This document shows positions 6,668 to 35,089 of a DNA stretch of 64,000 bases, one piece after another. The stretch spans positions 186,001 to 250,000 of the forward strand of contig MEFP01000001.1 in the NCBI GenBank assembly GCA_001725155.1, in the 5' to 3' direction. A model generated the notes under the pieces. The model searched no databases. It was given only the letters and a program-made list of their open reading frames with translations, and was not told where the DNA came from. The first letter of the stretch is position 1, and the number at the start of each line of letters is the position of its first letter. Position numbers and translations under genes: made by a program. The DNA comes from Lysobacteraceae bacterium SCN 69-320. GTDB taxonomy: Bacteria; Pseudomonadota; Gammaproteobacteria; Xanthomonadales; Rhodanobacteraceae.

Positions 6668-8022
6668 ATCTGCGCCTGTCCGAAATCGCGGTCTGGACCC
6701 GCGGCCATCTGGCCGGCGCCGACGTGGCCGTACACGGCGTCGCCACCGACACGCGCACCCTGCGTGGCGGTGAATTGTTCGTCGCGCTCAAGGGCGAACG
6801 CGTCGATGCGCACGATTTCCTCGGTGCGGCCGCCGCCGCCGGCGCCGCCGCCGCGCTGGTCGCGCGCAAGGTCGATGCATCGCTGCCGCAGGTCGTCGTC
6901 GCCGACACCGGGCGGGCGCTCGGCGATCTGGCCGCCGCCGTGCGCACACGACGCGACGCGCGCGTGATCGGCATCACCGGCTCCAACGGCAAGACCACGG
7001 TCAAGACGCTGACCGCGTCCATCCTCGCGCGCCGCGGCGCGACGCACTGGACCCAGGGCAATCTCAACAACGAGATCGGCCTGCCGCTGACCCTGCTCGC
7101 GCTGCCCGAGGACACGCGCTATGCGGTGCTCGAAATGGGCGCCGGCAAACCCGGCGACATCGCCTATCTCGCGGCGATCGCGCGGCCCGAGGTCGCGCTG
7201 GTCAACAACGTCGCACCGGCGCATCTGGAGCGCATGCGCTCGCTGGCCGGCGTGGCGCAGACCAAGGGCGCGCTGTACGAGGCACTGCCCGACGACGGCA
7301 TCGCCGTGATCAATGGCGAAGACGCTTTCGCCGCACTGTTTACAGGGCTTGCCGGAGCGCGGCGCATGCTGCGCTTCGGCTTTTCTTCCTCGTTCGACGT
7401 CTGGGCCGACGAACTGCGCCTGGGCACGCGTTCGCAGTTCCGCCTGCATACGCCGCAGGGCGAAACCGCAGTGGACCTGCCGCTGGCCGGACGACACAAC
7501 GTGTCCAATGCGCTGGCTGCCGCGGCGATCGCGGTCGCTCTGGACGTGCCGCTGGACGACATCCGGCAGGGGCTGGAAAACGCCGAAGCCGTGGCCGGCC
7601 GCCTCGCGCGCCGCGAGACCGCGGCCGGCTGGACGCTGATCGACGACAGCTACAACGCCAACCCGGGCTCGGCTGCCGCGGCCATAGACACTCTGGTGTT
7701 GCTGCCCGGCGAGCCTTGGCTCGTGCTCGGCGACATGAAGGAACTCGGCGCCGATGCGGCCGTGCTGCACGCGGACATCGGCGCGCGCGCGCGCGCGGCC
7801 GGCGTGCGTCGGCTGTACGCGACCGGCGACCTGAGCCGTGCCGCCGTGCAGGCATTCGGCGACGGCGGCCGCCATTTCGCCGCGCAGGCCGAACTGATCG
7901 AAGCGTTGCGTGCCGACCTGCATGCCGGCGTCTGTTGTCTGGTCAAGGGGTCGCGCTCGTCCGCGATGGATCGCGTGGTCAAGGCGCTGCTCGGAGCGCA
8001 GGGGGATTCGCATGCTGCTTGA
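6661..8022 (+). CDS. murF: UDP-MurNAc-tripeptide:D-Ala-D-Ala ligase MurF
   Basis: A 453-residue ATP-dependent Mur ligase that adds D-alanyl-D-alanine to the UDP-MurNAc-tripeptide in the cytoplasm. The N-terminal domain has [24 protein letters not shown], the central domain GSNGKTTVK (P-loop) and [16 protein letters not shown], and the C-terminal domain [18 protein letters not shown]. The ATG at 6661 is chosen because [10 protein letters not shown] is the normal family start; the frame is open further upstream, but only as overlap with ftsI. It overlaps mraY by 11 bases. MurE, which makes its substrate, is not encoded in this window. Confidence 0.96.
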
Positions 8023-9097
8023 ACTGGCTCGCTGGCTGACGCCTTACGTCAGCGCATTCCACGTCGTCCAGTACCTGACGTTCCGCGCGATCATGGCGAC
8101 GTTGACCGCGCTGGCCGTGTCGCTGCTGCTCGGCCCCGGCATGATCCGCCGCCTCGCCGCGCTGAAGGCCGGCCAGGTCATACGCCAGGACGGTCCGCAG
8201 TCGCATCTGTCCAAGGCCGGCACGCCGACCATGGGCGGCGCGCTGATCCTCGCCTCGATCGCGATCTCGACTCTGCTCTGGGCCGACCTCGCCAATCGCT
8301 ACGTCTGGCTCGTGCTGGCCGTGACCGTCGTGTTCGGCGCGATCGGCTTCTATGACGACTACAAGAAGCTCGTGCTCAAGGACAGCCGCGGCCTGGCCGC
8401 GCGCTGGAAATATTTCTGGCAGTCGGTCGGCGGCCTCGGCGCCGCGCTGTTCCTCTACTACTCGGCCGACGTGCCGGCGGCGACCGCGCTGTACCTGCCG
8501 CTGTTCAAGCAGGTCGCGCTGCCGCTCGGCGCGTTCCTGTTCGTGCTGCTGGGCTATCTGATGATCGTCGGCTTCTCCAATGCGGTGAACCTGACCGACG
8601 GCCTCGACGGCCTGGCCATCATGCCCAGCGTGCTCGTGGCCTGCGCGCTCGGCGTGTTCGCCTACCTCGGCGGCAATGCGGTGTTTTCCAACTACCTGCA
8701 GATCCCGGCCGTGCCGGGTGCCGGCGAGCTGACGATCTACTGCGGCGCCCTGGCCGGCGCCGGGCTGGGATTCCTGTGGTTCAACACCTATCCGGCGCAG
8801 GTGTTCATGGGCGACATCGGCGCGCTGGCGATCGGCGCGGCGCTGGGTCTGATCGCGGTGATCGTGCGCCAGGAAGTCGCCCTGCTGATCATGGGCGGCG
8901 TATTCGTCATGGAGACGGCCTCGGTCATGCTGCAGGTGGCCAGCTTCAAGCTGACCGGCAAGCGCCTGTTCCGCATGGCGCCGATCCACCATCACTTCGA
9001 GCTCAAGGGCTGGCCGGAACCGCGCGTGATCGTGCGCTTCTGGATCATCAGCGTCGTGCTCGTGCTGATCGGCCTGGCCACGTTGAAGGTCCGTTGA
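8012..9097 (+). CDS. mraY: Phospho-N-acetylmuramoyl-pentapeptide-transferase MraY
   Basis: A 361-residue polytopic membrane enzyme that transfers phospho-MurNAc-pentapeptide from UDP to undecaprenyl phosphate, giving lipid I. Conserved cytoplasmic motifs are present: [48 protein letters not shown] and the [11 protein letters not shown] His-rich loop. Length equals the family norm. Start overlaps the end of murF; the stop shares one base with the ftsW ATG. murD, which lies between mraY and ftsW in E. coli, is absent. Confidence 0.97.
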
Positions 9098-10287
9098 TGA
9101 GCGACGCCCAGGCCACCCGCCGCAGCGAACTGCCCGGTCGTTACGACCGCGGCCTGCTGCTGGCCGCGCTCGGCCTGGCCGGCCTCGGGCTGGTCATGGT
9201 GGCCTCCAGTTCGATTCCGGTGGCCGACAATCAGCACATCGGGCCGTTCTACTACGTCACGCGCCACCTGGTCTTCCTCGCGCTCGGGCTAGGCCTCGCG
9301 ATCACGGCGATGCGCATCGAACTGGAGAAGGTCGAGCAGCACAGCGGCGTCGTGCTGCTCGCCGGTTTCGCCCTGCTGCTGGCGGTGTTCGTGCCGGGCA
9401 TCGGCATGCGCATCAACGGCGCGCTGCGCTGGATCCATCTGGGCATCTCCGGCTTCCAGCCGGTCGAGGCGTTCAAGCTGCTGCTGATCCTCTATCTGTC
9501 CAGCTATCTCGTGCGTCACCGCGAAAGCGTGCAGCGCAATTTCTTCGGCGTGATCAAGCCGATCGGCGTGGCCGGCATCGGCGTGGCGCTGCTGCTCGTG
9601 CAGCCGGACTTCGGTTCGGCCGCGCTGATCGGCGCGACCACGGTCGGCCTGATCTGGCTGGGCGGTGCAAGGCTGCGCAACCTCGTCTTCCTCGGCCTGC
9701 CGATCATGCCGGTCATGGCCTATGCGGCGATGTTTGCGGAATACCGCCTCAAGCGTCTGACCTCGTTCCGCGATCCGTTCCTCGATCCGTTCGGCGACGG
9801 CTACCAGCTGGCCCAGGCGCTGATCGCGGTCGGCCGCGGCGAATGGCTCGGCGTCGGCCTCGGCGGCTCGGTGCAGAAGCTGTTCTACCTGCCCGAGGCG
9901 CATACCGACTTCATTCTCGCCGTGATCGCCGAAGAGCTCGGCCTGGCCGGTATCGTGTTCGTGCTCGCGCTGTTCGCCTGGCTCTGCGGCCGCGGACTGC
10001 TGATCGGCGCGCGCGCGATCCAGCGCGGCCTGTATTTCCAGGGCTATGTCGCATTCGGCATTTCCCTGTGCATCGCGCTGCAGGCGCTCGTGTCGATCGG
10101 CGTGAATCTCGGCGTGCTGCCGACCAAGGGACTGACCTTGCCGCTGATCAGCTCCGGCGGTTCGTCGGTGATGATGACCTGCGCGATGATCGGCGTGCTG
10201 CTGCGCGTGAGCTACGAACTGGCGCGCGAGGAAGCGCAGAGCGCCGAAACCACGCAGGCCCGCCTGCAGGCCGGAGTCTGGGCATGA
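9097..10287 (+). CDS. ftsW: Septal peptidoglycan polymerase FtsW
   Basis: A 396-residue SEDS-family protein with about ten membrane segments. FtsW polymerises lipid II glycan strands at the septum together with FtsI. Family hallmarks are seen: GLVMVASSS in the first segment, [68 protein letters not shown] and the C-terminal [24 protein letters not shown] 9097 shares a base with the mraY stop; the C-terminus overlaps murG by four bases. Confidence 0.97.
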
Positions 10288-11372
10288 ACGCGACGGCGCA
10301 GGCACCCGTGCTGATCATGGCCGGCGGCACCGGCGGGCACATCTTTCCGGGCATCGCCGTGGCCGACGAACTGCGCGCGCGCGGCGTGCCGGTGCTGTGG
10401 ATGGGCGCGGCCGGCGGACTGGAGACCGAACTCGTGCCGAAGGCCGGCATCGCGATCGAAACGCTCGACATCGGCGGCGTGCGTGGCAAGGGGCTCGCGA
10501 CCAAGCTCAAGGCGCCGCTGCGCCTGGCCCGCGCCGTGCTCGCCGCACGCCGCGTGCTGCGCCGCGCGCGGCCGCGCAGCGTGCTGTCGCTCGGCGGATT
10601 TGCGGCCGGCCCCGGCGGCATCGCCGCATGGCTGGGCGGGACGCCGTTGATCGTGCACGAACAGAATCGCGTACCCGGCACGACGAATCGCGCGCTCGCG
10701 CGCGTCGCGCGTCGCGTGCTGGCCGGTTTCGCCGATGCCTTTCCGCCGGCGCGCAAGGCCATTTGGGTCGGCAACCCGGTGCGCGCGTCCATCGCCGCGA
10801 TCGCGGCACCGGCCCAGCGTCTGGCCGGCCGCAGCGGACCGCTGCAGCTGCTCGTGCTCGGCGGCAGCCTGGGCGCGCAGGCGCTGAACACGCGCGTGCC
10901 CGCGGCGCTCGCCCCGCTGCCGGCCGCGCAGCGGCCGCGCGTGCGGCATCAGTGCGGCGCCAGGCATGCGGAAGCCGCGCGCGCGGCCTATGCCGCGGCC
11001 GGCGTCGAGGCCACGGTCGAACCATTCATCGACGACATGGCGCAGGCGTATGCCTGGGCCGATCTCATCGTCTGCCGCGCCGGCGCGCTGACCCTGGCCG
11101 AGATCGCCGCGGCCGGCTGCGGCGCCGTGCTCGTGCCGTATCCGCATGCGGTCGACGATCACCAGACGCGCAACGCCGAGGCGTTCGTGTCGGCGGGCGC
11201 CGCCCTGTGTCTGGCCGAAACCGAGGCGACGCCGCCGCGGCTGCAGCAGGAACTGGCAGCCTTGCTCGGCGACCGTGCGCGCCTGCTCGCGATGGCCGAG
11301 GCGGCGCGCGGACTCGCGCGGCCGCAGGCCGCCGCGAGCATTGCCGATCACTGCCTGGAGGCCAGCGCATGA
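10284..11372 (+). CDS. murG: Lipid II synthase MurG
   Basis: A 362-residue GT28-family glycosyltransferase. It adds GlcNAc from UDP-GlcNAc to lipid I on the inner face of the cytoplasmic membrane. The glycine-rich [17 protein letters not shown] loop (about residues 12-28), a [13 protein letters not shown] motif, [22 protein letters not shown] and the donor-binding [15 protein letters not shown] are present. The start at 10284 overlaps ftsW by four bases and gives the normal N-terminus. Confidence 0.97.
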
Positions 11373-12811
11373 CGCCGCGCCGTCTCGCTCCGCAGGACGA
11401 CATCACCCAGGCGCTGCGCCGTGTGCACTTCGTCGGCATCGGCGGCGTCGGCATGAGCGGCATCGCCGAAGTGCTGCACAATCTCGGCTACGACGTGTCC
11501 GGTTCGGACAAGGCCGATTCGGCCACCACGCGCCGCCTGGCCGGATTAGGGATACGCGTGGACCGCGGCCATGCCGCCGAACATGTGGCCAACGCCGACG
11601 CTATCGTCGTGTCCAGCGCGATCAGGCCCGACAACCCCGAACTGCTGGCCGCGCGCGAGCGGCGCATCCCGGTCGTGCCGCGCGCCGAAATGCTCGGCGA
11701 ACTCATGCGCTTCCGCCGCGGCATCGCGGTGGCCGGCACGCACGGCAAGACCACGACGACGAGCCTCGTCGCCAGCGTGCTGGCCGAAGCCGGCCTGGAT
11801 CCGACCTTCGTGATCGGCGGCCAGCTGACCGCGGCCGGCGCGAACGCGCGCCTGGGCACCGGCGAATACCTGGTTGCCGAAGCGGACGAATCCGACGGCT
11901 CGTTCCTGATGCTCTCGCCGATGGTCGCCATCGTGACGAACATCGACGCCGATCATCTGGAGAACTACGAAGGCGATTTCGCCAAGGTCAAGAAGGCGTT
12001 CGCCGACTTCCTGCACCGGCTGCCGTTCTACGGCCTGGCCGTGCTGTGCATAGACGACGCCGAGGTTGCCGCGCTCGCGCGCGAAACCACGCGTACGAGT
12101 CTGACCTACGGCATCGCCAGCAGCGACGCCGACGTGCGCGCGCTGAACGTGCGCCAGCAGGGCGCGCAGATGCTGTTCGATCTCGTGCTGCCGGGCGCCG
12201 ATGCGATCGTGCCGGTGACCTTGAACCTGCCGGGCCGCCACAATGTGCTCAACGCGCTGGCCGCGTCGGCGGTGGCCTGGCAGCTCGGCGTCGACGCCGC
12301 GGCGATTCAGCGCGCGCTGGCCCAGTTCCAGGGCGTGGGCCGGCGCTTCCAGGCGCGCGGCGAATTGCAGCTGGACGAGGGCCGCGTGGCCCTGGTCGAC
12401 GACTACGGACACCACCCGAGCGAGCTGGCCGCGGTGTTCGCCGCGGCGCGCGGCGGCTGGGGCGACCGGCGTCTCGTCGTCGCGTTCCAGCCGCACCGCT
12501 ACTCGCGTACGCGCGATCTGCTCGACGATTTCGCGCGCGTGCTCAGCGAGGTCGACGTGCTCGTGCTGACCGAGGTCTATCCGGCCGGCGAAGCGCCGAT
12601 CGCGAATGCCGACGCACGCGCGCTCGCGCGCGCCGTGCGTGCGCGCGGCAAGGTCGATCCGGTGCTGATCGAACATCCGCGTGATCTCAGGAACGCATTG
12701 CCCGCGCTGCTGCGCGACCGCGATCTGCTGCTGCTCATGGGCGCCGGCGACATCGGCGCGGCAGCCGTGGAGCTGGCGGCGCTGGGCGAACTCAGGACCA
12801 AGGCAAGCTGA
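11369..12811 (+). CDS. murC: UDP-N-acetylmuramate-L-alanine ligase MurC
   Basis: A 480-residue Mur ligase that attaches L-alanine to UDP-MurNAc. The N-terminal Rossmann motif [16 protein letters not shown]-loop [46 protein letters not shown] and [10 protein letters not shown] are all visible. It overlaps murG by four bases and shares one base with ddlB. murB, often next to murC elsewhere, is not present in this window. Confidence 0.97.
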
Positions 12812-13743
12812 TGCGAATCACCGATCCCCAACTGTTCGGACGCGTGGCCGTGGCCCTCGGCGGCAATTCCGCCGAGCGCGAGGTGTCGCTGGACTCCGGC
12901 CGCAACGTGCTCGAAGCGCTGCGTTCGCGCGGCGTCGATGCGCATCCGGTCGACGGCATTCCGGCGCTGCTCGACGCGCTGCGCGCAGGTCATTTCGCGC
13001 GCGTGTTCAACATTCTGCACGGCCGCGGCGGCGAGGACGGCATGCTGCAGGGCGCGCTGCAGGCGCTCGGCGTGCCGTTCACCGGCTCGGGCGTGCTCGG
13101 TTCGGCGCTGACCATGGACAAGGTGCGCACCAAGGAAGTCTGGATCGCCAAGGGGCTGCCGACGCCGCGTTTCCGCGCCTACCGCAAAGGCGAAGACATC
13201 GCCGCAATCATCACCGAGCTCGGCTATCCGGTCATCGTGAAGCCGTCGCACGAAGGTTCCAGCGTCGGCATCACGCGCGTGTACGGGGCATCCGATCTGC
13301 CGGCGGCGCTGGAGCTCGCATCGCGCTACGACGGCGAACTCGTGATCGAGCAACTGATCGTCGGCGACGAATTCACCGTCGGCATTCTCGACGGCGAGGC
13401 GTTGCCGAGCATCCACATCGTGCCCAAGGGCGAGTTCTACGACTATCACGCCAAGTACGTGGCCGAGGACACGCAGTATCTGTGTCCCGGTCTGGAAGGT
13501 GAAGCCGAACAGGCCATGCGCACGCTCGCCCTGGCCGCGTTCGATGCGGCCGGCGCCTCGGGCTGGGGGCGCGTGGACGTCATGCGCGACGGCGCCGGCC
13601 GCAACTGGCTGCTTGAAGTGAACACCACGCCGGGCATGACCAGTCATTCGCTGGTACCCAAGGCCGCACGTGCGGTCGGCATCGACTTCGCCGAACTGTG
13701 CTGGCGCATTCTCGAAACCAGCTTCGGAGACGCCGCCCCGTGA
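12811..13743 (+). CDS. ddlB: D-alanine-D-alanine ligase
   Basis: A 310-residue ATP-grasp ligase that joins two D-alanines for the pentapeptide terminus. The opening [19 protein letters not shown], the [14 protein letters not shown] motif, [14 protein letters not shown], the [14 protein letters not shown] segment and the [24 protein letters not shown] ending are characteristic. The size suits the short DdlB type of dcw clusters. It shares one base with murC and overlaps ftsQ by four bases. Confidence 0.96.
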
Positions 13744-26675: not shown

Positions 26676-28403
<1,728 letters not shown>

Positions 28404-28761
28404 AAGAATTCCACGTAAACCCCCGAAACTACGGCGGAATGTACTCCAGTTCCGGGCTGTTTTGAATCGGTCGGCGCAAAACTGTGACCGCCCTCAAGAA
28501 CCGTTCCGGGCTGGCCCCGGCAGGAGTCGCCGCCCGCGCGGCAGGATCCGGGGCCGGCCGCCCCCCTCGGTCAGGCGCGCAAGGGGAAAAAGCCACTTCG
28601 GGACAAGGGCATCACCTGTCCCGCGGCGCAGGCGCTTGGCGCGCCGGAGTCCAGGTTCCGGAGTGCCGCCGCAGGCCGGTCAGGCCGGCCAGAACGGGCC
28701 CCGGGTATCCCGGTCGGAGCGCTTCGTTGCGGACGGGCGCCGCCCGGCGGCGGCGTGGCGT
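28404..28761 (-). other. Gap between the sulfatase-fold gene and pilB
   Basis: No gene is supported here. The right part is very GC-rich with no clear terminator; the left part, close to pilB, holds the possible sigma-54 site at 28474-28491. Confidence 0.4.
28474..28491 (-). promoter_or_regulatory. Weak sigma-54-like site upstream of pilB
   Basis: Read leftward, the sequence GG-TCACAGTTTT-GC keeps the invariant GG and GC with 10 bases between them, and a TTGC at -12. The -24 block matches TGGCAC poorly. Transcription would start about 60 bases before the pilB ATG. Confidence 0.3.
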
Positions 28762-30612
28762 TTACCGGTCGTCGCTGCGGCGCATGACCGAGCCGACTGC
28801 CGGCGCGAGTTCGACCATCCATGCCGCCTGCGTCGCCGGCGGAATCCGCGCGGTCAGGTCGACCGATTCGCTGTCGTCGCCGGTCACGTCGAACGTGTAG
28901 TCGCGTTCAGTCTTCACGTCGCGCCAGAATTTCGTGATGCGCAGCGCGTCCCCGAGATCATAGAGCCCGACCTGGGCACCCTGCTGGAAATGGATGTAGC
29001 GGCGGGGCCTGGGGTCCTGCAGCGCCATGCCGACCCAGGTCGGCGGCGGCGCTATGCCGAGTTCGGCGAGGATGGTCGGTGCGATGTCGACCTGCGAGGC
29101 CTGGCGGATCGGCGCGAGAGGGCGTTCCGGTTCATAGCCGAAGGAGAACATCAGGAACGGAATGCGCAGCACGTTCTCGTAGACCGACTTCGCGTGCATG
29201 AACTCGTTGTGTTCGCCGATCAGGTCCGCGTGGTCGGCGGCGAGGATTACCACGGCGTCGCCGAGATAGCCCTTGTCGCGCAGCAGGCCGATCAACTCGG
29301 TGAAGGTGGCGTCCATCTGCAGCACGCCGTTGTCGTAGTAGTTCGTCGTTGCCGCCGTCGGCGGTCCGGTACGGCCTATCGGCTTGGCATAGGACTCCGA
29401 CGGCAGCCAGCGCTGGTTCGCCTCGTTGCGCCGGGACAGTGCGTGCGAGGACATCAGGTGGAACCAGATCATCGTCGGCTGGCCGTCCCAGGCCGGCAGT
29501 CGCGATACGCGATCGACGACAAGCCTGTCGTCGTTCATGTAGTAGCCCTTGGCCATCGAGCCGTCGAAGTAGTCGTCCAGCGCTCCGTAGGCTTCGCGCA
29601 CGCCGTAGAAGTTGGTGTGATCGCCGCCAAGCAGCATCTGCGTGCGGTAGCCGTTGCGCTTGAGCACGTCGGCCAGGGTGAACGGCCGGTTGGAAAACTG
29701 GTGCGTGTACTTGGACAGCAGACTGGCCAGGACGCCGCAGGTGGACTCGGCGCAGGCGGCGGTGACGCGATCGAGCTTCTGCGTGCGGGTGGTCTGCATC
29801 AGCGCCGCGATCCGCGGCGTCGTGTCCCGCGCATAGCCGTAGACGCCCATGTGGTCCGGACGCAGGGCGTCGGCGAGGAACACGAACACGTTGCGCTTCT
29901 TCGCCCCCGGCGTGGGCTGGTAGTTGCGGCGTTCCTCGTCCTCGATGCGGTCCAGCGCCCGCGCGCCGTCGGTGGTATGCGCCTGCAGGCTGCGCGCCGC
30001 CTGTTCCGGGAACAGGGTCAGGCTCAACGGCTCGCCTTCGGTCGCATAGGAGACATCGAGAAAGGTGGTCGTGCGTATCGCCACGTAGGCCAGGCCGCAG
30101 ATCAGCAGCGCGCCGACCATGCGCGGGGACAGTCGTCGCGACAGCATCGCGATGCCGTCGATGCGCGGCTGCACCAGCCAGAACAGCGCAATGAGACCGC
30201 CGATGGCGGCGGCGGCGGCGCCGAAGGCCAGCGCCGGCGAGATGCCCAGCGCGTCCATCAGCTGGATCGCCTGGCGGGAATAGGTCCAGATCAGCTGCCA
30301 GGACGTGACGCGGCCCCAGGACAGCAGTCCGGTGGCGACGGTCGCGTAGTAGGCGCAGAGCACGAGCAGCGCGAGCGCGAGCAGCGACGCGGAGGCCAGC
30401 CGCGACGACTTGCCGAGACGCGCGACGACCAGCCGCACCGCGGCCAGGCCGACCCAGAATGCCGACAGCACGATGAAGTGCGGCATCACCGCCGCGCGCG
30501 GCTGGGCGACGCGGAACACGTAGAAGTAAAGAAACACCGCGGCGATCGCCGCGAAGCAGAACAACTCCAATGCGACGCGGCCGGCAATCCCGCGCCAGTT
30601 GCGCTCAGACAT
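28762..30612 (-). CDS. Membrane sulfatase-fold hydrolase/transferase in the pilus block
   Basis: A 616-residue protein with about five N-terminal membrane segments (within residues 14-190), then a periplasmic alkaline-phosphatase-superfamily domain. Metal-site motifs are FLADALRPDHMGVYGY (Asp248) and AADHADLIGEH (Asp460-His461). The nucleophile position reads CAESTCGV with Thr291, not the CxPxR formylglycine site of true sulfatases. This resembles phosphoethanolamine/phosphoglycerol transferases (EptA, LtaS, Neisseria PptA). It may hydrolyse or transfer a phospholipid head group in the periplasm. It overlaps the methyltransferase gene by eight bases and lies between the pilin genes and pilB, which suggests, without proof, that it modifies pilin. 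Confidence 0.7.
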   Translation of the reverse strand: MSERNWRGIAGRVALELFCFAAIAAVFLYFYVFRVAQPRAAVMPHFIVLSAFWVGLAAVRLVVARLGKSSRLASASLLALALLVLCAYYATVATGLLSWGRVTSWQLIWTYSRQAIQLMDALGISPALAFGAAAAAIGGLIALFWLVQPRIDGIAMLSRRLSPRMVGALLICGLAYVAIRTTTFLDVSYATEGEPLSLTLFPEQAARSLQAHTTDGARALDRIEDEERRNYQPTPGAKKRNVFVFLADALRPDHMGVYGYARDTTPRIAALMQTTRTQKLDRVTAACAESTCGVLASLLSKYTHQFSNRPFTLADVLKRNGYRTQMLLGGDHTNFYGVREAYGALDDYFDGSMAKGYYMNDDRLVVDRVSRLPAWDGQPTMIWFHLMSSHALSRRNEANQRWLPSESYAKPIGRTGPPTAATTNYYDNGVLQMDATFTELIGLLRDKGYLGDAVVILAADHADLIGEHNEFMHAKSVYENVLRIPFLMFSFGYEPERPLAPIRQASQVDIAPTILAELGIAPPPTWVGMALQDPRPRRYIHFQQGAQVGLYDLGDALRITKFWRDVKTERDYTFDVTGDDSESVDLTARIPPATQAAWMVELAPAVGSVMRRSDDR

Positions 30613-31318
30613 TCTTGATCACGACGAGACGCGAAAGACCGAACAGGTTGACCGGCTCGACCGACTGGATTTCCCAGTCGTAGCGGGCGACGTGCTCTTC
30701 GAAGTGGAAATCGGAACGGAACCCGACCTTGCTCGACAGCGGCTGCGCCGCTTTCTCGAGCAACCACCAGAAGCGGCTGCCGCTGAAGTGGTTGAGGATC
30801 ACGATGGTTCCGCCCGGCCGGCAGAGCCGGCGCAGCTCGCGCACGAGACGGACCGGATCCGGCGTCGCCGACAACACGTACGGCACGGTGATGCAGTCGA
30901 AGCTCGCGTCGGCGAACGGCGTGGCTTCGCCGTTCATGATGTGCAGCTCGACGTCGCGCAGGCCCAATGCCGCCGCGCGCCGCTGCGCCCGGGCGAGCAT
31001 TTCCACGGACAGGTCGATGCCGACGATGCGGCTCGAGGCGGGATAGCAGTCCAGGGTCAGTCCCGTGCCGACGCCGACTTCGAGCACGCGCTGCGCGGTC
31101 AGCGAACGCAATGTCGCCGCCATGCGGCGGCGGCCATGGGCATAGATGGCACCGAACAACTGATCGTAGAACGGCGCATAGCGGCCGTAGGTGCGCTTGA
31201 TCTGTTCCTGCGTCAGCGAGCCGGCGTCGGGCCGCGCCTCGATGCGTCGCGGCGGCGACAGTGCCGCGGTTTCGCCGCCGTCAGCTGACGGCGGCGTCTC
31301 GAAGGGGGGGCGAGACAT
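30605..31318 (-). CDS. SAM-dependent methyltransferase, phosphatidylethanolamine N-methyltransferase-like
   Basis: A 237-residue cytoplasmic class I methyltransferase. YGRYAPFYDQLFGAIYAHGRRRMAA, RVLEVGVGTGLTLDCYP (SAM loop, near residue 78) and VGIDLSVEMLARAQRR closely recall the soluble PmtA-type phosphatidylethanolamine N-methyltransferases. The C-terminus VNLFGLSRLVVIKN also fits. If so, it would convert PE towards phosphatidylcholine; a UbiE-like quinone or other small-molecule role cannot be excluded. ATG 31318 is chosen, as the frame upstream has no family-like sequence. It lies 81 bases after a pilin gene and overlaps the sulfatase-fold gene. Confidence 0.7.
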   Translation of the reverse strand: MSRPPFETPPSADGGETAALSPPRRIEARPDAGSLTQEQIKRTYGRYAPFYDQLFGAIYAHGRRRMAATLRSLTAQRVLEVGVGTGLTLDCYPASSRIVGIDLSVEMLARAQRRAAALGLRDVELHIMNGEATPFADASFDCITVPYVLSATPDPVRLVRELRRLCRPGGTIVILNHFSGSRFWWLLEKAAQPLSSKVGFRSDFHFEEHVARYDWEIQSVEPVNLFGLSRLVVIKNV

Positions 31319-31360
31319 AGGCGAGGGATTCTGCCGGCGATGGGGCATCCTGCCGAACTC

Positions 31361-31383
31361 GCCGAAGCAAGACAAGCTTCGGC
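31361..31383 (-). terminator. Hairpin just after the first pilin gene (attenuator or processing site)
   Basis: GCCGAAGC (31361-31368) and GCTTCGGC (31376-31383) pair perfectly around seven bases, 17 bases past the pilin stop. No T-run follows, so it probably reduces rather than ends transcription. It would let the pilin be made in excess over the downstream enzyme genes. Confidence 0.4.
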
Positions 31384-31399
31384 ATCGCCGTTTCCCGCA

Positions 31400-31870
31400 T
31401 CAGTTCTGGCCGGTGCGGCAGATCGTCGGGAGGAACTTCTGCGGCACGGTGGCCGAACACGTCCATGCCACGCTGCCGCCCGTCGTCGAATACGTCGGGT
31501 GCAGGGTCATGGTGAGATTGTTGATCAGGGCGTTCGCGCGCCGTGGAGCCGTGCTGGAATACGTGCAGACGATGTCGCCGTTGACGACGGTCACCGCGCT
31601 GATGTATTTGCCGACGATGTCGGCCGCCGCCGGCAGTCCCGCGACGGTATTGCTGGCCGGCAGCACGCCGGTATTGGACAGGGTCTCGGCGACCGCGGTC
31701 TTTGCGCCGCTGGCCAGGATGCCGCATTCCTCGACTTGGGTGCGCACGACGTAGTCGTGGTAGGAAGGCAGTGCGATGGCCGCGAGTATCGCGATGATCG
31801 CCACGACGATCATCAGCTCGATCAGCGTGAATCCGGTGTGGCGGCGCGGAGACGGGAGCATGCTGTTCAT
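31400..31870 (-). CDS. pilA: Type IV major-pilin-like protein, copy 1
   Basis: A 156-residue type IVa prepilin. A short basic leader ending in Gly precedes [24 protein letters not shown], with Glu at +5 and the PilD cleavage site G-F. The globular part has cysteines at ECGIL, VCTYS and a C-terminal pair (WTCSATVPQKFLPTIC) that probably makes the D-region loop; it ends CRTGQN. ATG 31870 is used; an in-frame ATG nine bases later would only shorten the leader. A sigma-54 promoter lies about 30 bases upstream. It is clearly similar to the second pilin at 32809-33270. Confidence 0.93.
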   Translation of the reverse strand: MNSMLPSPRRHTGFTLIELMIVVAIIAILAAIALPSYHDYVVRTQVEECGILASGAKTAVAETLSNTGVLPASNTVAGLPAAADIVGKYISAVTVVNGDIVCTYSSTAPRRANALINNLTMTLHPTYSTTGGSVAWTCSATVPQKFLPTICRTGQN

Positions 31871-31901
31871 CGTCGGGTTTCCAGAGATGGCGCGAGGCGG
31901 C

Positions 31902-31917
31902 TGCATAGGGCATGCCA
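31902..31917 (-). promoter_or_regulatory. Sigma-54 (-24/-12) promoter of pilin copy 1
   Basis: Read leftward: T-GG-CATGCCCTAT-GC-A, with GG and GC exactly 10 bases apart and TGGCAT matching the -24 block well. Start would be near 31891, giving a leader of about 20 bases. PilR, an RpoN-dependent activator, is encoded just upstream in the block. Confidence 0.75.
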
Positions 31918-32752
31918 AGGGTCTGTGCCGTTCGCGGCCGGGAAACCACCGTTCGTCGACTCGGGTGTGACGCGGGCGGGCCGCTGCAGCGCGGCGCGGC
32001 ACAGATTGCCGCAATGCGCCGGATTGCCGCCGCGGCAGGCGATCGCGGACTTTGCGAAGCCGTCGCGCCGGTGCTCGATGCCGATGACAGCGATCATCCT
32101 TGCCGGGGTGCGGACGCGAGCCGGTGCCGGATGCGGTAAGCGGAAATTCGTCCACTATGGCCAGGTCGGTGGTGTGGGCGCGACATCGCGGCTGTCGTGG
32201 AGCCGTCGTGGCGACCGATCGTCATGCCCGGGTGCGGTAGCGCGGTTGCCCAGGGTCCGGCGGCGAGTCTGCCGGCCTGTTTGCGGATCCGCCTGCAAAA
32301 TCGCTGGATCCGCGTCCGCGGAAATCTCGGCTGGGGGACTCGGCTGTCCATTTCCGCAATCTGCCGGGCGCGTGTCCAGGCGTGCGCCGATCAGGACCTC
32401 GAGTCGGTCGCTGTCGTCGGGTCGAGTCGCGCTGCCCACGTTGTCGATTGGCGGGCACGCTTCCAGTGGTTGGGCTGAATGGACGCGGTCGGTGCCGCTG
32501 CGTCTGCGTGCCGCCTTGCGACGAACGCTCGCCGATGCCCGGTCCGGATCTTTCCCTGACGCTGCTGTCCGCGTCGATGCAATGCAGCGCACCGTTCTTC
32601 ACGATGCAGTCCGTGGTCTGCTATGCGCCGACAGCCGCGCAAAACGGCTGGCAAGCCCGGGGATTCCCGGCCGCCGTCGAAGTGTTCTAATCCTGTTGCG
32701 ATATGGCCCGCGCTCCGGAGTGGCGCATGTCGTCCGCCAAGTTTTGCGGCGG
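31918..32752. other. Long gap between the two pilin genes
   Basis: About 835 bases lie between the copy-1 promoter and the copy-2 terminator. Open frames exist on both strands, but none shows a known domain, signal peptide or convincing ribosome site, and their compositions look like GC-driven chance frames. A small dyad GATGA-CAGCGA-TCATC at 32083-32098 contains a TGTCA-like half-site on the minus strand and could serve activation of copy 1. Otherwise nothing is recognised; a decayed third pilin or modifier gene was looked for and not found. Confidence 0.4.
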
Positions 32753-32784
32753 ACAAAAAAAACGACCGCCTTGCGGCGGTCGTT
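32753..32784 (-). terminator. Terminator of pilin copy 2
   Basis: AACGACCGCC (32761-32770) and GGCGGTCGTT (32775-32784) form a perfect 10-base-pair stem around TTGC. On the leftward strand it is followed by a run of eight T (the A-run at 32755-32762). It lies 25 bases past the pilin stop, so this pilin gene is monocistronic. Confidence 0.92.
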
Positions 32785-32808
32785 CTGGGTATCGCGCAGC
32801 AGAATTGC

Positions 32809-33270
32809 TTAGTTCGTGCCGGTACGGCAGATCGTCGGCAGGTACTTCTGGTCGATGTCGGCGCTGCTGCAGGTCCAGGTGACGCTGCCCAGCGAGGTCG
32901 ACAGGACCGGCGTCAGCAGCAGGTGCTGGCCGTTGATCTTGGCGTTGGCGCGGAACGTGCCGGTGTTGGAGTAGGTGCAGGTGACCGCACCGCCGGCGCC
33001 GACGGCAACTTCGCTGACATACTTGCCGAAGATGTCGGCGGCAGCGGCGAGACCGGCGGCCGCGTTGGTGGTCGGAGCCGTGCCGGTGTTCATGAAGGTC
33101 TCGGCGATGGCCGTCTTGGCGCCCGAGGCCAGCACGTCGCATTCGCTGACCTGCGAACGGATCGTGTAGTCCTGATAGGCCGGCAGCGCGATGGCGGCGA
33201 GGATGGCGATGATCGCGACGACGATCATCAGTTCGATCAGGGTAAAGCCCTTGGCGTTGTTCATCTTCAT
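32809..33270 (-). CDS. pilA: Type IV major-pilin-like protein, copy 2
   Basis: A 153-residue type IVa prepilin with leader MKMNNAKG, then [24 protein letters not shown]. The PilD site, Glu5 and the conserved hydrophobic helix are intact. The C-terminal cysteine pair ([17 protein letters not shown]) and the CRTGTN ending match copy 1, so the two are recent paralogues or a conserved pair. The ATG at 33270 follows AAAGGA at good spacing, a stronger ribosome site than that of copy 1. With its own sigma-54 promoter and strong terminator, it looks like the main structural pilin. Confidence 0.95.
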
Positions 33271-33391
33271 GAGTGTTTTCCTTTGCAACCGAGTCATTTG
33301 AATTCGAAGGTTTCGCCCCCGAGCCCTACGCTGGCAAGACGGTGGTCGTGTGGACCGTCTCGGGACTGCGTCGATGCCCGAAGCGGATTCG

Positions 33392-33407
33392 AGCATGTTT
33401 CATGCCA
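33392..33407 (-). promoter_or_regulatory. Sigma-54 (-24/-12) promoter of pilin copy 2
   Basis: Read leftward: T-GG-CATGAAACAT-GC-T, with GG-N10-GC spacing and close matches to TGGCAC and TTGCT. Start would be near 33381, leaving a leader of about 110 bases before the ATG. Very similar to the site before copy 1. Confidence 0.8.
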
Positions 33408-33488
33408 CCGCGCCTAGCGGCCGGATGTGGAACAACGTCACAAAACGATGGCTCATAACGCGACGCTATCAGCTTATGCGCCGCTTTG

Positions 33489-33503
33489 CGTCAGAAACTG
33501 ACG
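33489..33503 (-). promoter_or_regulatory. Candidate PilR enhancer site
   Basis: CGTCAG-AAA-CTGACG is a perfect 6-base dyad about 110-120 bases upstream of the predicted pilin start site, a normal position for an RpoN activator. PilR sites in other species contain TGTCR-type elements; CGTCAG is close but not identical. The assignment is inference from position and symmetry. Confidence 0.35.
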
Positions 33504-33607
33504 GAGTGCGCCAGTTTTGGCGTGGTCGAGCGGGGCGCGGGCGAAATCTGTACCGTGCAAGACCTCGCACGGCGCCGGCGCAGGAACGGCCCGGCAGCAC
33601 TCTCAGG

Positions 33608-33621
33608 CATGAACGTTCATG
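33608..33621. promoter_or_regulatory. 14-base perfect palindrome CATGAACGTTCATG
   Basis: A gapless palindrome in the pilR-pilin gap, about 230 bases upstream of the predicted pilin start. It may be a regulator site or the arm of a weak pilR transcript end. No family is assigned. Confidence 0.25.
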
Positions 33622-33688
33622 GCTGGTGCGGCAGCCGGAAGCATTCCCGGCGGCCTCGGCCCGCAGCGCTGGTGCGCGCGGCGCCGAC

Positions 33689-35089
33689 TCAGTCGATGGC
33701 CAGCTTCTTGAGCTTGTAGCGCAGCGCGCGGAACGTGATGCCGAGCTTCTTGGCGGCAGCGGTCTTGTTGTAGCGCGTCTCGACCAGCGCCTTCATGATC
33801 GTCTCGCGCTCGATGTTGCTGATGAAGTCGTCCAGTCCCTGCGGCTGGCCGTCGTCGTCCATGTCGTCGACGGCGAGATTGCCGGCGGGTATCGGCGCAG
33901 CCGGCGGCACCGGCACGCCCTCGGGTGCGGCGCGCGTATGCAGTTGCTGCACCAGCTGCAGGTCGTCGACCTCGATGATGTTGTGCTCGCAGAGCGCGAC
34001 GGCGCGTTCGAGCACGTTCTCGAGTTCGCGCACGTTGCCCGGGAAGTTGTAGGACAGCAACGCCGCGAGCGCCTCGGGCTTCAGCCGCGCCGGGCTGGTG
34101 CCGTGATCACGGGCGAGCCGTTCCAGTACGCGGCCGGCGAGCTTCGGAATGTCTTCCTTGCGCTCGCGCAGCGGCGGCACGCGCAGCTCGATCACGTTGA
34201 TGCGGTAGAACAGATCCTGGCGGAACTGGCCCAGTTCGACGAGCCGCGCGAGGTTCTTGTGGGTTGCGGAGAGGATGCGCACGTCGATCGCGACTTCGCT
34301 GCGGCCGCCGATCGGGCGCACCGACTTTTCCTGGATCACGCGCAGCAGCTTGACCTGCATGTGCAGCGGCAGCTCGGCCACTTCGTCGAGGAACAGGGTG
34401 CCGCCGTGGGCCGCCTGGAACAGGCCGTCCTTGTCCGCGTGCGCGCCGGTGAAGCTGCCCTTCTTGTGGCCGAAGAACTCGCTTTCCATGAGTTCGGACG
34501 GGATCGCGCCGCAGTTGACCGGCACGAAGGCGCCGCCGGCGCGCGGCCCCAGCTCGTGGATCTGGCGCGCGACCAGCTCCTTGCCGACGCCCGACTCGCC
34601 GCTGATGTAGACCGGAGCCTGGCTGCGCGCGAGCTTGCCGATCGTCGCGCGAACATGTTCCATGGCCGGCGAGTCGCCGATCAGCTTGCTTTCGGTCGCG
34701 CTGGCGCCGGCACGGCGTTCCTCGCCGAGCTTGAGCGCGGTCTGCACGAGGCGGCGCAGCATGGCCAGGTCGACCGGCTTGGACACGAAATCGAAAGCGC
34801 CGGCCTTGAGCGCGACGACGGCCGCGTCGACGTTGCCGTAAGCCGTGATCATCGCGATCGGCATTTCCGGGTACTGGCGCGTGACTAGCTCGATGATTTC
34901 CTGCCCCGAGCCGTCCGGCAGGCGCATGTCGGTGAAGCACAGATCGTATTTGCGTTCGGTCAGCCGGTTGCGCGCTTCCCCGACGCTGCCGGCCGTCGTC
35001 ACGTCGAGATTCATGCGGCCCAGCGTGATCGTCAGCAGTTCGCGAATGTCGCGCTCGTCGTCGATCACCAGCGCGGTTTGTCTACTCAT
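33689..35089 (-). CDS. pilR: Sigma-54-dependent response regulator PilR
   Basis: A 466-residue NtrC-family activator. The receiver domain (1-120) has phospho-acceptor Asp54 (FTDMRLPDG). The AAA+ domain has GESGVGKE (Walker A), the sigma-54 contact loop GSFTGAH and LFLDEVAELP (Walker B). An Ala/Pro linker leads to a Fis-type helix-turn-helix (NKTAAAKKLGITFRALRYKLKKL). The contact loop is GSFTGA rather than GAFTGA, a variant also found in other PilR proteins. It lies 79 bases after pilS and should drive the two pilin promoters. Confidence 0.96.
   Translation of the reverse strand: MSRQTALVIDDERDIRELLTITLGRMNLDVTTAGSVGEARNRLTERKYDLCFTDMRLPDGSGQEIIELVTRQYPEMPIAMITAYGNVDAAVVALKAGAFDFVSKPVDLAMLRRLVQTALKLGEERRAGASATESKLIGDSPAMEHVRATIGKLARSQAPVYISGESGVGKELVARQIHELGPRAGGAFVPVNCGAIPSELMESEFFGHKKGSFTGAHADKDGLFQAAHGGTLFLDEVAELPLHMQVKLLRVIQEKSVRPIGGRSEVAIDVRILSATHKNLARLVELGQFRQDLFYRINVIELRVPPLRERKEDIPKLAGRVLERLARDHGTSPARLKPEALAALLSYNFPGNVRELENVLERAVALCEHNIIEVDDLQLVQQLHTRAAPEGVPVPPAAPIPAGNLAVDDMDDDGQPQGLDDFISNIERETIMKALVETRYNKTAAAKKLGITFRALRYKLKKLAID

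Follow-up and report, generated by a model that had tools for sequence, protein, structure and literature searches.

What do a phospholipid methyltransferase and a membrane-bound protein of the sulfatase superfamily do in the middle of a type IV pilus locus? The question is raised by a 64,000-nucleotide stretch of the 5.7 Mb genome of Lysobacteraceae bacterium SCN 69-320 (G000:C1:186001-250000; hereafter the window), in which the open reading frames of the minus strand run in the order pilA2, pilA1, methyltransferase, transferase, pilB, pilC and pilD (Table 1). The pair of methyltransferase and transferase recurs beside pilin genes in distant bacteria, and it probably decorates pili with a methylated phospho-group. 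A sequence-only reading of the window had placed two overlapping minus-strand genes in the interval between the pilins and pilB, and the open reading frames, of the lengths given in Table 1, bear this out; the overlap of the two frames suggests that their translation is coupled. The product of the second gene is proposed here as a candidate pilin head-group (phospho-form) transferase.

Linkage of the transferase family to pilin genes

Transferase genes were compared across 16 genomes (G000, G334, G180, G197, G223, G230, G740-G747, G967 and G1010), with all genome samples being parts of larger groups; G197 is a Marinicella, of NCBI order Lysobacterales, the same order as the source organism. 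A broad contig scan, from which 80 loci were kept, contributed among these nine loci (L093-L101) at E 2e-40 or better. No more than 5 kb separate the transferase gene from a pilin gene in 10 of the 16 genomes, namely the window (counted through pilA2, with pilA1 nearer), G334, Marinicella, G223, Pseudomonas guguanensis, two Variovorax genomes, a SAR86 record, G967 and G1010, and an eleventh, G180, has the pilin at a distance of 5.4 kb within a pilA-pilA-pilB-pilC-pilD cluster. By comparison, none of 71 generic sulfatase-type loci of the same scan, with 585 kb of flank, had a pilin gene within 5 kb (Fisher 2e-9), a control that is imperfect in being drawn mostly from other phyla and having many shortened flanks. 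A null of 20 pilin genes per 4 Mb gives 6e-10 for the observed linkage. The linkage of transferase and pilins exceeds chance, and a connection that had been drawn from position only has gained comparative support. Recurrent adjacency to pilin genes, the mark of a pilin accessory cassette, is found in this family: in P. guguanensis the transferase follows pilA by about 70 bases, and a block in G1010 (L183) holds the transferase, two pilins and a TfpX/TfpZ-type accessory protein (193 bits against a cut-off of 200). The genomes outside the pilin link are G743, G744, G746, G747, which has a transferase fragment on a 4-kb contig, and G230. Both G230 (L092, a weak homologue lacking the motif described below) and L101 (a fragment from a Rhodocyclaceae record) stand outside the 16 proteins that were aligned, yet are counted as misses among the 16 genomes.

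The transferase is rare. Matches at 1e-20 or better occur in 6 of 299 genomes of its own order and, in a sample of its own class, in 1 of 369, which is its own genome. At 1e-25 it is found in 3 of 299 genomes of the family of the Variovorax genome G742 and in 1 of 199 of the genus of the P. guguanensis genome. A sample of 147 genomes of the family yielded one full-length match, the window protein itself, and the runner-up reaches 58 bits. In the tree, the window and G967 transferases are sisters (96/95), a position that suggests transfer between groups.

Some of the linked loci hold more than one such gene. Marinicella (L090) has diverged transferase copies on either side of one pilin gene (7932-9758 on the minus strand, 11144-12967 on the plus strand), and the second copy is followed by a small methyltransferase of another kind (13041-13646), for which BioC is the best model. 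At L091:11109-13220, another PF00884 protein (2.9e-8) directly follows a pilin-linked transferase, so that some loci may hold two distinct enzymes of this fold.

Fold and putative active site of the transferase

The transferase matches Pfam Sulfatase (PF00884; 1.1e-31, 110.7 bits, above the cut-off of 25), and its N-terminus has five hydrophobic segments, which are five long helices in the AlphaFold model (m04359d8ea33a). Five N-terminal membrane helices with a catalytic domain behind them are the arrangement of EptA-type enzymes. A Foldseek search with this model returned full-length MCR-1 at rank 1 and EptA at rank 3, and the fold matches place the protein in the alkaline-phosphatase/sulfatase superfamily. 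HHalign paired it with EptA at a probability of 99.2, with 20% identity in 246 aligned columns; the best EptA-type NCBIfam model, P_eth_NH2_trans, gave 50.9 bits, short of its cut-off of 500. The formylglycine motif CxPxR (or SxPxR) was not found in any of the 16 aligned members. The earlier description of a membrane protein of the alkaline-phosphatase superfamily without CxPxR is in agreement with the Pfam match, the hydrophobic segments and the MCR-1 and EptA hits. The fold search did not tell a transferase from a true sulfatase. The absence of CxPxR and the presence of five membrane helices favor a transferase over a sulfatase. In addition, at the position of the DD acidic pair of sulfatases, the window protein has one acidic residue (DALR).

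EptA-type enzymes, to which Neisseria PptA belongs, have a threonine nucleophile in the motif CGTxT, and this motif is present in the five EptA-like proteins examined. The window family has instead C-x-[ED]-[ST]-x-C-G in 15 of its 16 members (CAESTCG in the window, read as C287-x-E-S290-x-C292-G293) and SASTICG in one, a Chitinophagales protein (L100:9380-11146) that may have a related role on glycans. The putative metal ligands are invariant in the family. Residue 290 is Ser in 14 members and Thr in 2, and is flanked by Cys287 (15 of 16) and Cys292 (16 of 16). Ser290 fell at the nucleophile position in a MAFFT alignment with 27 generic members and five EptA proteins and in the HHalign comparison with EptA, and in the AlphaFold model it is the first residue of a helix (290-299) that follows a strand (276-284). 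In a reference sulfatase (L164) modeled with the same tool, the motif Cys49 is likewise the first residue of a helix (49-58), six residues after the end of a strand (37-43). Ser290 is preferred over Cys287 because the L164 cysteine occupies this same place in its model, and on the alignments and models together Ser290 is the likely nucleophile.

Other candidates were weighed and set aside. The Thr of CAEST, Thr291, had been named as the nucleophile, and this was one residue off: no alignment put Thr291 there, and Thr occurs at 291 in 3 of 16 members as against Ser or Thr at 290 in all 16. Cys287 ranks second, favored by HMMER alignments to sulfatases and to MCR-1 and disfavored by the structural position in L164; a MAFFT alignment with EptA alone pointed to residue 286. 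A disulfide between Cys287 and Cys292 close to the active site is conceivable, as is a catalytic role for Cys287.

The methyltransferase, its partnership with the transferase and their surroundings

The best NCBIfam model for the methyltransferase is the PmtA phospholipid N-methyltransferase (NF045882, 6.5e-36; runner-up 7.2e-17), and the best solved structure is a phosphatidylethanolamine (PE) N-methyltransferase (8ys9, 5.6e-33; next structure 2.1e-11). By these wide margins, the assignment to the PmtA type is upheld. The score of 124.1 bits lies under the curated NF045882 cut-off of 390, as does that of a standalone homologue, L199 (144.9 bits). Within the window genome there are 12 matches to the protein, and no second close copy is among the matches listed, the next best being weak (8.8e-10). 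The 147 sampled genomes of its own family hold one other close homologue, in G079 (51%), which lies on a different contig from the G079 pilB and has no pilin within 5 kb. Its best structure and family match liken the window protein to the Rhodobacter-type PmtA of 8ys9 and NF045882, and it differs in its place in a pilin cassette, in the overlap with the transferase gene and in falling below the family cut-off.

The two genes are adjacent in 6 of the 16 genomes: the window, two Variovorax genomes (L094 and L095), G967 (L182) and two Betaproteobacteria bins (L096 and L097). Four of these pairs, in the window, both Variovorax genomes and G967, stand beside pilins, and those of L096 and L097 (G743 and G744) do not, so that the test of whether the pair often occurs away from pilins gave a mixed answer. 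By mechanically assigned starts, the frames overlap in four of the six, by 1 base in L094 (from a GTG start), 8 in L095 and 4 in L096. In L097 the methyltransferase is between two transferase genes, the second of which is truncated at the contig end, and in G1010 both genes are present and unlinked. In one family sample, 14 of 298 genomes carry the methyltransferase and 3 of 299 the transferase, and the latter three have both (P = 0.002 when the genome chosen as centre is left out). Two of the 14 methyltransferase loci (G742 and G967) are pairs; the other 12, that of G1010 included, have no pilin within 5 kb, with one flank shortened in L201, L204 and L210. These 12 loci and the G079 copy led us to reject the methyltransferase as a usual pilin neighbor. 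It looks like an ordinary lipid enzyme that was pulled into a pilin cassette in some lineages, and the transferase looks mostly pilin-bound, with or without it.

Two broken genes were also seen. A transferase-like gene in two pieces lies beside the pair in a Betaproteobacteria bin (L184:2918-4354), and Variovorax genome G741 has a second, degenerate methyltransferase copy with one internal TGA (L185:9015-9645).

Upstream of the pair, pilA1 ends 81 bases before the methyltransferase start and is assigned as a pilin from the sequence itself and BLAST matches to other pilins; downstream, pilB was matched at 1e-150 in 58 of 61 relatives. A consensus promoter scan of 28300-33800 found no sites, and the six terminator-like sites of this region, against a mean of 3.0 in shuffles, are no evidence for function.

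Table 1. Features of the pilin-to-pilB region, numbered from the first base of the window
Feature	Position	Strand	Description and basis
Transferase gene	28762..30612	-	616 aa; catalytic domain about 238-600; Pfam Sulfatase, model, Foldseek, family invariants
Methyltransferase gene	30605..31318	-	237 aa; PmtA-type phospholipid N-methyltransferase; NCBIfam NF045882, PDB 8ys9
Overlap of methyltransferase stop and transferase start	30605..30612	-	8 bases
Proposed nucleophile codon, Ser290	29743..29745	-	Alignments and helix start at 290; counted from gene start 30612
Thr291 codon	29740-29742	-	Residue named in the sequence-only reading; directly after Ser290 codon
Cys287 codon	29752-29754	-	Cys in 15 of 16 members
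Cys292 codon	29737-29739	-	Cys in 16 of 16 members
pilA1, type IV pilin gene	31400..31870	-	GFTLIELM; start picked inside open reading frame 31400-32155; candidate acceptor
pilA2, second type IV pilin gene	32809..33270	-	Pfam Pilin 1.1e-22, N_methyl 1.4e-10; candidate acceptor
pilB	26676..28403	-	Downstream of the pair; followed by pilC, pilD
Terminator-like hairpin, pilA2-pilA1 gap	32759..32786	-	12 pairs, T tail; consensus scan

Across the genus, the stretch upstream of pilB looks like a variable slot for pilin accessory genes. In seven same-genus genomes, the 10-12 kb upstream of pilB contain no transferase and no close methyltransferase homologue, the only matches to the latter being two weak ones, both in G091. 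The same-genus stretches read in the pilA-pilB interval carry apparent sugar genes; that of G036 holds an AsnB-type amidotransferase and a family-4 glycosyltransferase by family scans. Long and differing gene sets, several with sugar genes, precede pilB in L062-L068. The G1010 pilin block includes a fused protein that resembles a major facilitator (MFS) and spermidine synthase in a family scan (L183:6022-9084), and a protein whose start is very similar lies beside pilins in G036 (L067:1-2621).

Proposed pathway, competing explanations and known systems

In the pathway proposed here, the cytoplasmic methyltransferase would use S-adenosylmethionine to convert PE to its mono-, di- or trimethyl forms, as its family suggests. 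Methylation would occur at the lipid stage, before transfer, and is placed in the cytoplasm because the methyl donor is there. The transferase, predicted to be held in the inner membrane by its five helices with the catalytic domain in the periplasm, may in the manner of EptA-type enzymes take the phospho-head-group of the lipid onto Ser290, beside a metal site of Asp248, Asp460 and His461, and then pass it, ahead of assembly, to pilin held in the membrane or to a glycan that pilin carries. Genomes that lack the methyltransferase would use the unmethylated lipid. What the analysis shows directly is the gene pair with its overlap, the fold class, the conserved motif and the recurrence with pilins; the donor, the moiety and the acceptor are what we infer by analogy. 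As a whole, a pilin accessory cassette that makes methylated PE and transfers the head group to pilin or to a pilus glycan has, in our estimation, an even chance of being right; we rate higher the narrower claim that the transferase is linked to the pilus. The version in which a PmtA enzyme is coupled with transferases of a new, Ser-nucleophile family, and the head group of methylated PE or of phosphatidylcholine (PC) is donated to pilin, is somewhat less likely than not.

Several observations weigh against this proposal. The pair is not obligatory, as a methyltransferase match is missing in 8 of the 16 transferase genomes (thresholds 1e-20 and 1e-15), two of which, G334 (65% complete) and G747, are incomplete or small; the match in G180 is weak (1.4e-20). 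In the tree, methyltransferases that belong to pairs fail to group as one clade, although many forks are weak. The pairs of L096 and L097 are on contigs without an N_methyl match, both of which end within a transferase gene, and G743 and G744 have such matches only on other contigs. The genome of the G746 transferase (L100) has no N_methyl match at all, and the neighbors of this transferase look like polysaccharide export genes. The fold of the catalytic domain fails to separate the transferase from a true sulfatase. Of the earlier claim that pilin is modified with methylated phosphoethanolamine, the link to pilin has been strengthened by comparison; methylated phosphoethanolamine on pilin is a putative modification.

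The alternative that survives best, unlikely though by no means far-fetched, is that the head group which the transferase adds to pilin or to a glycan of the pilus is unmethylated, either phosphoethanolamine or phosphoglycerol, and that the methyltransferase is only co-expressed and makes membrane PC or methylated PE for another purpose. Such a division of labor would fit G334, Marinicella, G223, P. guguanensis and the SAR86 record, where the transferase is pilin-linked and the methyltransferase gave no match, and the position of 12 of the 14 methyltransferase loci of the family sample away from pilins. It is harder to reconcile with a pair that is adjacent in six genomes from distant groups and overlaps in four of them, and with the presence of both genes, though unlinked, in G1010. 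It is improbable that the pair instead aids pilus assembly, or the membrane near the pilus machine, by lipid remodeling or chaperone-like action with no covalent mark on pilin. Some pilin accessory proteins do not modify pilin, and TfpY is reported to aid assembly (PMC11841053), but the invariant putative metal ligands and the Ser or Thr at residue 290 in all 16 proteins indicate catalysis. Slightly less probable again is a hydrolase that acts on a pilus or surface glycan as a sulfatase or phosphodiesterase and trims its sulfated or phosphorylated sugars: the catalytic domain resembles true sulfatases as much as transferases and sugar genes occupy the same interval in same-genus relatives, but CxPxR is absent, the five membrane helices are EptA-like and DALR stands in place of DD. 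That unrelated genes were brought together by chance in a variable interval, as their absence from the stretch upstream of pilB in all seven same-genus genomes would allow, is very improbable and already disfavored by the recurrence of the transferase with pilins and of both genes with each other.

The proposed cassette would work most like Neisseria PptA, a member of the alkaline-phosphatase superfamily and kin to PE transferases, without which pilin lacks phosphoethanolamine and phosphocholine (PMC4010543, PMC10434233). The window family differs in its C-x-E-S-x-C-G motif, in falling far under every EptA-type cut-off listed, and in the location of its gene in a pilin locus with, in some genomes, a methyltransferase adjoining. 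EptA and MCR share the five membrane helices, the catalytic domain and the top Foldseek ranks, and differ in the low identity, in Thr rather than Ser at the nucleophile and in lacking the pilin context. Pilin genes are known to have accessory genes next to them (PMC11841053). The Pseudomonas cassettes (TfpO, TfpW and TfpX/Y/Z) likewise adjoin the pilin gene, and L183 also has a TfpX/TfpZ-type gene, but there TfpO and TfpW act as glycosyltransferases and TfpY helps assembly (PMC11841053), whereas the window combines an enzyme of head-group-transferase type with a lipid methylase.

Mono- and dimethyl phosphoethanolamine are present on gonococcal pilin, where a methyltransferase pathway has been implicated, with enzyme and donor not known, and where the lipid-donor and on-protein models are both problematic (PMC4010543). 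With gonococcal PptA and PilE in a PC-making species, the head group put on pilin was that of PE, not PC (PMC4010543), a further point against the proposed donor. PptA homologues occur in species with phosphocholine-modified proteins, some of which have PmtA-like genes, and the 2023 survey that reports this still describes the PptA donor pathway as unidentified (PMC10434233). In 2014, PMC4010543 described an established instance of protein modification by the head group of a methylated phospholipid as lacking. No description of a methyltransferase-transferase pilin cassette was found in the literature searched, which covered few subscription journals.

If the proposal is true, this cassette would give an established example of a protein modified with the head group of a methylated phospholipid, with methylation before transfer, and would add a non-sugar enzyme class to the pilin accessory genes. 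Such a cassette, in bacteria other than Neisseria whose genes can be deleted by ordinary means, offers a clean and directly testable case for where the methylated phosphoethanolamine of Neisseria pilin comes from.

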